NCBI GenBank assembly: GCA_017633985.1
Contig: JAGBOF010000010.1
Span: forward strand, 124,001-188,000
From: Bacteroidales bacterium
GTDB lineage: Bacteria; Bacteroidota; Bacteroidia; Bacteroidales; P3
Direction of reading: 5' to 3'
DNA length: 64,000 nt
This document shows positions 19,361 through 20,710 of this stretch, one piece after another. The first letter of the stretch is position 1; each line of letters starts with the position of its first letter. The notes under the pieces are model-generated. The model searched no databases. It was not told where the DNA came from and saw only the letters and a list, made by a program, of their open reading frames with translations. The position numbers and the translations under genes were made by a program.

Positions 19361-19448
19361 TTGATAGATAACAGAAATAAACTTTATAAACATAATTAAA
19401 AGGAAAAAGAAAAATGAAATAAAGATATAGAAAATAAATAAAATATTA

Positions 19449-19475
19449 ACAACGTAGCATTTTGCTGTTGTTTTT
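19449..19475 (+). terminator. Terminator-like hairpin after cca
   Basis: AACAAC and AGCA pair with TGCT and GTTGTT, leaving a GT bulge, and are followed by five T. It sits about 90 bp after the cca stop and immediately before the structured element at 19476. Confidence 0.5.
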
Positions 19476-19593
19476 GAGTTAAAGTAAAACGGCCATTTTA
19501 TTGCGGACTCAATAACAGTAGGTAAATGTCCATGCTTCGTGTGGATTATACTTACGGGTTCGCTATGGTGCTTGGCCGTACCAACTTTAACTC
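19476..19593. ncRNA. Candidate 118-nt structured RNA element
   Basis: The ends GAGTTAAAGT (19476-19485) and ACTTTAACTC (19584-19593) are perfectly complementary. A second perfect pair, ACGGCC (19489-19494) with GGCCGT (19574-19579), continues the same stem, giving 16 bp around a small internal loop. Inside are a perfect hairpin TTATTG/CAATAA (19498-19503 and 19510-19515) and a two-part hairpin GTAGGTA/TACTTAC with inner TCCA/TGGA (19518-19555). The fold is a closed multibranch junction. It occupies the gap 19361-19675 before the acyltransferase gene. Strand is not certain because the fold is almost symmetric. I recognise no known riboswitch, SRP, tmRNA or 6S signature. Confidence 0.55.
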
Positions 19594-19675
19594 AAAGTAA
19601 GTCCACAAATTTTTTTGTTGTTCTCTTACAGGGTTGCACTTCGGCATGATGTTACAATAAAAAACATTAACAATC

Positions 19676-20710
19676 ATGACAACAACAAAAGAAAGAAACA
19701 CCTTTTTTGACGGACTGAAATTCGTACTCATAGTTTTGGTCGTATTAGGACATGTAATAGCCGAACGCAGATACAACACCGCCAACCTAATATTAATAAC
19801 TTTTATTTGGTTTTTCCACATGCCGCTTTTTGTCTTCATTTCAGGATATTTTACACGCAAGAAAAAAGATACAAAAGCATTCAGAACAAGCATATTCAGA
19901 CTTTTGGAAACACTGATATGTTTTCAAATTCCATACTTATTACCTGAAATAATAACCAAACATTACAGCATATCATGGTTAACAGTTCCCAGATATTTAT
20001 TGTGGTATTTGCTCAGTTTGATTTGGTGGAGAATTTTCATACAATACATTCCTGACAAACTGTTAAATAAAAAGATTCTTATGCTCTGCCTTTCAATTGC
20101 AGCAAGTATCCTCATTGTCAGTATAACCGTCCCAGGCAGAGTATTATCTTATCAAAGAACTTTTGCCTTATTGCCGTTCTTCCTTTTAGGATATTACGCT
20201 AAACAGACCGACATTATAAACAAAATAATGAAACTCACTCCTATTCTGACATCTTGTATTTTGATTGCAATATGCGCTGTAATCTGCTTTATGCCTAATG
20301 AAATCAACAACACTTTACTAACTGCCGCTCACTTTGCCAATGATAATATTGAACTTCTGTCAGGTAATATCGGATTGAATATGCTTATGCGTGTCTTTTG
20401 TCTTGTCATTGCGGCGGTTATGTCCGTCTGTGTCATAAATTTGTGTCAATTTGTACCTGCAAAATTACGCAATTACGGACAGAATACCATGCTCTTTTAT
20501 ATCTACCATGGTTTGATGTTATACTTTATCCGATACACCATTGCCAGACTGAATGTTTTTCAGTCATTTCCTTTTATAAGTTATCTGCTTATGTTTGTTA
20601 TCATAATGATACTGTTGTTTGTGATAGACAGATACAGGATTTTTCATTTATTGATAAATCCTATAAGTAATTTCCGTGAAATCACAGCGCTAATAAGACG
20701 TAAGAATTAA
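19676..20710 (+). CDS. Acyltransferase family 3 membrane protein
   Basis: The 344-aa integral membrane protein has about ten hydrophobic helices. It begins with the acyltransferase-3 signature FFDGLKFVLIVLVVLGHV, where the His is the conserved catalytic residue, and continues FIWFFHMPLFVFISGYF. A late motif YIYHGLMLY is also typical of the family. Such proteins O-acetylate or otherwise acylate exported polysaccharides, peptidoglycan or lipids. The start ATG at 19676 is 82 bases after the structured element at 19476-19593, which could be its 5' leader. The substrate is unknown. Confidence 0.85.
   Translation: MTTTKERNTFFDGLKFVLIVLVVLGHVIAERRYNTANLILITFIWFFHMPLFVFISGYFTRKKKDTKAFRTSIFRLLETLICFQIPYLLPEIITKHYSISWLTVPRYLLWYLLSLIWWRIFIQYIPDKLLNKKILMLCLSIAASILIVSITVPGRVLSYQRTFALLPFFLLGYYAKQTDIINKIMKLTPILTSCILIAICAVICFMPNEINNTLLTAAHFANDNIELLSGNIGLNMLMRVFCLVIAAVMSVCVINLCQFVPAKLRNYGQNTMLFYIYHGLMLYFIRYTIARLNVFQSFPFISYLLMFVIIMILLFVIDRYRIFHLLINPISNFREITALIRRKN

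Follow-up and report, generated by a model that had tools for sequence, protein, structure and literature searches.

A candidate strand-exchange 5' leader RNA before a membrane acyltransferase gene and its relatives in Bacteroidota

What is the compact nested structure that lies between two genes in a 64,000-nucleotide stretch of a Bacteroidales genome (contig JAGBOF010000010.1, positions 124,001 to 188,000; this whole stretch is called the window)? The original prediction, made from the letters of the window, placed the element at 19476..19593 before an acyltransferase gene and considered a riboswitch, an independent RNA or a mobile-element end. We conclude that it probably represents a new family of cis-acting Bacteroidota 5' leader RNAs, which would be co-transcribed with the next gene and act as a strand-exchange switch. 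Comparison of the members' sequences establishes the existence and conservation of the family, its strand, its 5'-leader position and its competing complementarities. The leader is absent from Rfam, previously uncatalogued, Bacteroidota-wide and often present in many copies per genome.

Structure, conservation and strand of the leader

The region 19466-19603 folds with an energy of -53.4 kcal/mol as compared with -29.0 +/- 3.5 kcal/mol for dinucleotide shuffles (z -6.9, 0/200), which confirms the nested stems noticed earlier, and the reverse strand of the hairpin folds less well (z -4.3). The closing stem described as 10 bp plus 6 bp does exist, its lengths having been understated, as it comprises 13 bp and then 7 bp (ACGGCCA/TGGCCGT), with two more helices enclosed by them. 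Likewise, the hairpin at 19476-19593 was drawn too narrowly: it forms the core of a longer leader, about 165-180 nt in length (19454-19629, + strand), whose conserved parts run from about 19454 (HP1) to about 19629 (D). The leader ends before the acyltransferase ATG at 19676, and both the intergenic gap of 315 bp (19361-19675) and the distance of 82 nt from element to ATG had been given correctly. The parts of the leader and the gene that follows it are:

HP1, 19454..19468, + strand: small 5' hairpin GTAGC-ATTTT-GCTGT, kept as nnAGC-loop-GCUnn
P2, 19473-19485 with 19584-19596, + strand: closing stem, a perfect 13 bp here and 5-9 bp in most members
P3, ACGGCCA 19489-19495 with TGGCCGT 19573-19579, + strand: 7 bp here, inside the closing stem
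SA and SB, + strand: short hairpin stems beside P3; SA is AAA/TTT, SB is GGT 19567-19569 with ACC 19580-19582
P4, GCGGACTC 19503-19510 with GGGTTCGC 19556-19563, + strand: stem of the leader
P5, 19518..19555, + strand: hairpin of P5a (19518-19535) and P5b (19539-19555), switch segments 1 and 2
PX, TGTTTTTGAGT 19469-19479 with ACTCAATAACA 19507-19517, + strand: alternative or pseudoknot pairing with one mismatch
e3, GTAAGTCCACA 19597-19607, + strand: switch segment 3, followed by AA and the U tract 19610-19616
D, CTTAC 19625..19629, + strand: switch segment 4, past the U tract, pairing with GTAAG 19597-19601
Downstream gene, 19676..20710, + strand: membrane acyltransferase (Acyl_transf_3, PF01757, E 2e-21)

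A copy 74% identical occupies the same place in a congener (genome G004), before a related acyltransferase gene, and a short way upstream of this copy stands TAACTTTG, a box of the type found in Bacteroidota promoters (TAnnTTTG). Between the two copies, seven predicted pairs stay paired although both partners have changed; among them, P2 shows A-U to G-C as well as A-U to U-A, and P3 shows G-C to A-U. BLASTN with the element found only this copy in the genus and family, and the acyltransferase used as a search guide gave few relatives. A covariance model of the two sequences (R1) found about 25 candidates in the window's family; its intermediate scores were initially distrusted, since a long hairpin also matches as its reverse strand (L002 +, 46.7 bits). 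A second covariance model (R2), built on 14 sequences aligned by MAFFT with projected structure, gave at least 53 bits for members and at most 25 bits for all others in the tested set, and recovered a copy absent from its training set (L007 in G055) before an acyltransferase of the same family. With E-values that are rough for covariance models, R2 matched 157 of 190 genomes in the window's family, covering all 12 genera, together with 153 of 393 sampled genomes of the order and 46 of 395 sampled genomes of the phylum; the window's genome held 16 matches at E<=0.5, of which the last four are weak. A DNA pattern scan of named species genomes yielded 84 stretches, and R2 confirmed all 80 of the 80 that were listed. 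These listed stretches belong to Bacteroidota (Bacteroidales, Flavobacterium, Capnocytophaga, Winogradskyella, Cellulophaga, Aequorivita, Mucilaginibacter and others), except for one metagenome-assembled genome labelled Chlorobiota and a few records labelled only 'uncultured bacterium'.

Covariation was measured in alignments of 60 and 83 sequences, both of which were fitted to the covariance model and hence lean towards it. Paired cells made up 91.7% and 90.0%, respectively (72.4 and 71.0 after shuffling), 27/36 and 31/36 pairs changed on both sides (0/500 shuffles as high), and the covariation score was 0.56 and 0.47 as against 0.21 and 0.13; slid-partner controls collapsed in both alignments. 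The 83-sequence set was picked by a pattern inside P5, so that its P5 counts are biased, and the 60-sequence set was not picked in this way. Covariation extends to almost all pairs of P2, P3 and P4, with both-side changes at 5/5 modelled pairs of P2 and 8/8 of P3, and in HP1 96.7% of cells are paired among 60 members, the second pair appearing as AU, UA, UG or CG. Stem-breaking substitutions in homologues had been named as the sign that would speak against the element; the homologues instead keep the stems by compensatory change.

By hand alignment the members share, from 5' to 3', HP1, a P2 of free sequence, GAAA, P3 (UCGCCAA/UUGGCGA with many variants), UUUC, a P4 of free sequence, P5 (AAUAAG..GCUCACG-loop-CGUGGGC..CUUAUU), e3 (GUCCCACG) and the U tract. 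Well-conserved sequence is limited to the unpaired GAAA/UUU, P5 with the ACC-type junctions, and HP1 (40/162 positions at >=90%), the core being conserved in structure more than in sequence. Outside the P5 upper stem, G-U pairs outnumber A-C mismatches by 95:17 and 114:31 (about 4-6 fold), and therefore selection acts on the + strand RNA. The 150 nt upstream of the members carry 109 sense and 28 antisense TANNTTTG boxes, mostly 30-90 nt before HP1. As read from these sequences, the wobbles and the Bacteroidota-type promoters fix the strand of the element as +.

Competing pairings and the candidate switch

Partner-swap permutation tests were run on 139 distinct members, whose relatedness inflates the z values. 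They gave -49.7 for P2, -45.0 for P4 and -29.3 for P3, followed by PX (-16.9), the P5 upper stem (-14.0), P5b:e3 (-13.1), SB (-5.8) and SA (-2.9), with controls between -1.6 and +2.6. The pairing of e3 with D scored -11.9, and P5b, P4b and J12, each tested against D as controls, were null. P5b is unable to pair with P5a and e3 at once, so these pairings are mutually exclusive, and their median energies are about equal (-13.0 kcal/mol for P5 vs -14.0 kcal/mol for P5b:e3). The e3 segment repeats the sequence of the 5' strand of P5; in the window it is complementary to TGTGGA 19540-19545 and CTTAC 19551-19555, both in P5b. The 8 nt past the e3 core hold a mean of 6.1 T.

For PX, the own partner beats the median partner in 90% of members; in the window copy this pairing runs into P2 and P4, in many other members it only adjoins them, and it may be an alternative pairing or a coexisting pseudoknot. 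SB has at least 3 bp in 139/139 members, varying between GGU/ACC and GGC/GCC, and SA at least 4 bp in 112/139. As these hairpin stems flank P3, P3 is possibly a loop-loop contact: it may join the SA and SB loops, with P2, SA, P4-P5 and SB then forming a four-way arrangement. Simple nesting of P3 accounts for these pairs too.

Other pairings were tried and set aside. In the window's genome (G000) and G004, 19454-19467 could pair over a long range with the stretch preceding the ATG; this was dropped as the other members show HP1, and a plausible-looking closing helix P1 (GACAUA/UAUGUC) was not significant (z -1.5). GACAUA is conserved just before HP1, in the region about 10-60 nt upstream, in many members, and UAUGUC or UACGCAC/GUGCGUA matches across the element occur in some, for which the closing-helix tests were likewise not significant. 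Close to where transcription probably starts, a variable hairpin was seen by eye, for example CUGACA..UGUCAG or GAUUGAC..GGUCAAUC.

We propose that the leader RNA would fold as HP1 and a P2-P3-P4-P5 domain carrying four switch segments in the order P5a (1), P5b (2), e3 (3) and D (4). Segments 1:2 and 3:4 would be paired in one state, and 2:3 in the other, giving a GC-rich helix with an immediate U tract that resembles an intrinsic terminator. PX would be a second alternative, the 5' half forming PX alone and the formation of P2 or P4 displacing it. A signal, which could be a ligand, a protein or the rate of folding, would bias the choice and so set the expression of the downstream gene, usually one for a secreted or accessory protein, at the level of termination, translation or decay. 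We infer that the exchange takes place in cells and that the 2:3 pairing lowers expression.

Several points weigh against this strand exchange. The 2:3 helix closes a loop of about 50-70 nt, which is unusual for an intrinsic terminator, and since transcription passes the U tract before it reaches D, the 3:4 pairing comes too late to stop termination at that point and has to act at a later stage or on translation. The window copy has an e3:D match of only 5 bp, judged by eye, where most members have a longer one, and its promoter box does not match clearly. The downstream genes show no conserved metabolic pathway that would suggest a ligand, and a single pseudoknotted fold might hold both PX and P5b:e3, which would then not be alternatives.

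A single fold of this kind is the main rival: a structured leader with one fixed pseudoknotted fold (PX, e3:P5b), working without termination as a protein or ribosome platform or a 5' stabiliser, would leave translation or mRNA decay to set expression. In many members PX adjoins P2 and P4 with no large overlap, which makes coexistence possible, D sits between the U tract and the ATG, and the lack of a common ligand pathway fits as well. Such a leader nevertheless seems unlikely, as P5a and e3 compete for P5b and both covary with it, for which a fixed fold has no need, and as a conserved U tract stands directly past the 2:3 helix. Less probable by far is a small RNA acting in trans, about 170-230 nt long, that ends at the U tract beside a merely adjacent gene. 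A U tract past a GC-rich helix could end an RNA, and sense-strand promoter boxes of the element's own lie upstream, but copies in the same genome differ in their stems, which is unexpected for paralogous small RNAs with common targets. In 114/119 loci the downstream gene runs in the same direction as the element, its ATG lying a median of 53 nt past the modelled element end, and D, past the U tract, covaries with e3; these findings make the independent RNA of the original prediction less likely.

That the element is an intrinsic terminator of the upstream gene can be given very little credence: the GC-rich helix with its U tract and the co-directional upstream gene in the window would suit a terminator, but upstream genes share the strand in only 82/114 loci as against 114/119 for downstream genes, promoter boxes stand between the upstream gene and the element, and a terminator has no need of P2-P4, PX or D. 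Similarly remote, and already disfavoured, is a mobile-element end, a miniature inverted-repeat transposable element (MITE) or a recombination site acting as DNA. Many copies per genome, one copy in a phage-labelled record and mosaic copies with identical flanks would agree with mobile DNA. The near-identical copies at unrelated sites that characterise MITEs were not the pattern found, as copies within one genome differ in all variable stems, P2 and P4 included, and keep their order, strand and distance to the start codon, which leaves the suggestion of a mobile-element end unsupported; moreover, selection at the DNA level would not yield the excess of G-U over A-C.

Relation to known RNA classes

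Rfam 15 gave no match on the window and none on the element above the gathering threshold at E<=10, in line with the earlier failure to place it in a known class. On 18 member loci the element was again without a match, and tmRNA, tRNA, SAM-II and the L19 leader were found there, which serve as a positive control. A tRNA search likewise found none. No matching motif was found in the searchable literature, a comparison that excludes non-Rfam sets (GUCCY-hairpin and the set of PMC8040213), so that the family may have been listed before, in part or without a name.

The element is a conserved structured sense-strand RNA directly before co-directional genes, as expected of a cis-regulatory leader, and its conserved aptamer-like core with alternative expression-platform pairings corresponds to a riboswitch whose ligand binding is putative. 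The earlier suggestion of a riboswitch or structured RNA hence holds as a class of explanation, given a + strand 5' leader with covariation and mutually exclusive pairings, with small-molecule binding being its putative part. Cyclic di-GMP riboswitch classes occur in many copies per genome before diverse downstream genes. The leader resembles riboswitches and orphan candidates in its long structured 5' form, apparent expression platform, several to many copies per genome and diverse downstream genes including those for surface proteins; it differs from them in lacking an Rfam match and in having little well-conserved sequence. With trp-type four-segment attenuators it shares the opposition of 1:2 plus 3:4 to 2:3, borne out by the P5 upper, P5b:e3 and e3:D scores, and a U tract after a GC-rich helix. 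In those attenuators the U tract comes after 3:4, which serves as the terminator hairpin, whereas here it directly follows e3, and thus the 2:3 helix, within the e3-D loop; furthermore, no leader peptide was noted, none having been searched for, the segments sit in a large covarying fold and the downstream genes do not form one pathway. Weinberg et al. 2010 (PMC2864571) describe structured RNAs of the same phylum (Bacteroidales-1, Bacteroides-1, Bacteroid-trp, Flavo-1, 6S-flavo, GUCCY-hairpin and Bacteroides-2), of which those with Rfam accessions do not match the leader and two, GUCCY-hairpin and Bacteroides-2, are without an accession in its table. By its name only, GUCCY-hairpin may be like the e3:D part and is a lead.

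Downstream genes and variation among copies

In the window the gene upstream of the element encodes a poly(A) polymerase/CCA-adding-type enzyme and is co-directional with it. The proteins encoded downstream are diverse across members. By a crude rule, signal-peptide-like starts are present in 42/55 downstream proteins (76%) and in 75/264 other open reading frames (ORFs) of the same loci (28%; Fisher P 7e-11). In the window's genome the downstream genes encode BspA-type leucine-rich-repeat (LRR) proteins, a type IX secretion C-terminal domain, an M6 peptidase, Omp28, a TPR-like protein and two acyltransferases, and EcoRI-type methylases follow the element in other genomes. We tentatively suggest, as a wider proposal held with reserve, that the leaders could form a phylum-wide riboswitch-like class in which one signal co-ordinates several to about twenty secreted, surface or accessory genes per genome, including horizontally acquired cargo. 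The signal would be read by a strand-exchange RNA that combines a loop-loop contact with alternative pairings on its 5' and 3' sides. If true, this class would rank among the more abundant cis-regulatory RNA families of a major gut, marine and soil phylum while missing from Rfam, and would link many surface, secreted and defence-type genes to one RNA switch. A working covariance model is at hand, as are members in cultured strains, for example of Capnocytophaga, Flavobacterium, Mucilaginibacter and Cellulophaga.

BLASTN with the element gave no match in phages and, with a related copy, none in plasmids; neither the element pattern nor the acyltransferase was found in viral contigs. One copy (L222:2501-2657, MT835758.1) lies in an unannotated phage-labelled fecal scaffold, adjoining a D5-like primase/helicase ORF and directly before an ORF of 215 aa; the element can travel with mobile DNA.

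Two copies in the window's genome, L184 and L190 (G000:C30:66184-66356 - and 67784-67966 +), lie on opposite strands about 1.4 kb apart and face away from each other, one of them preceding a second Acyl_transf_3 gene. The sets L014/L035 (G173, G175) and L071/L090/L093 (G330, G563, G500) have flanks (60 nt on each side) that are identical or nearly so and differ in P2, P4 and partly P3, the P2 of L035 being that of L017. These mosaic leaders look as if copies had exchanged sequence within the element, by recombination or gene conversion. Strict orthogonality of the stems within a genome was rejected, as P3 sequences recur in genomes and the mosaics point to recombination. Genomes G152 and G155 (L199-L221) carry at least 10 leaders each, several of which precede secreted proteins, BspA-type LRR or similar ones, whose signal peptides (MKRLLFF..) are nearly identical, and L204 and L221 are almost identical leaders followed by different genes.
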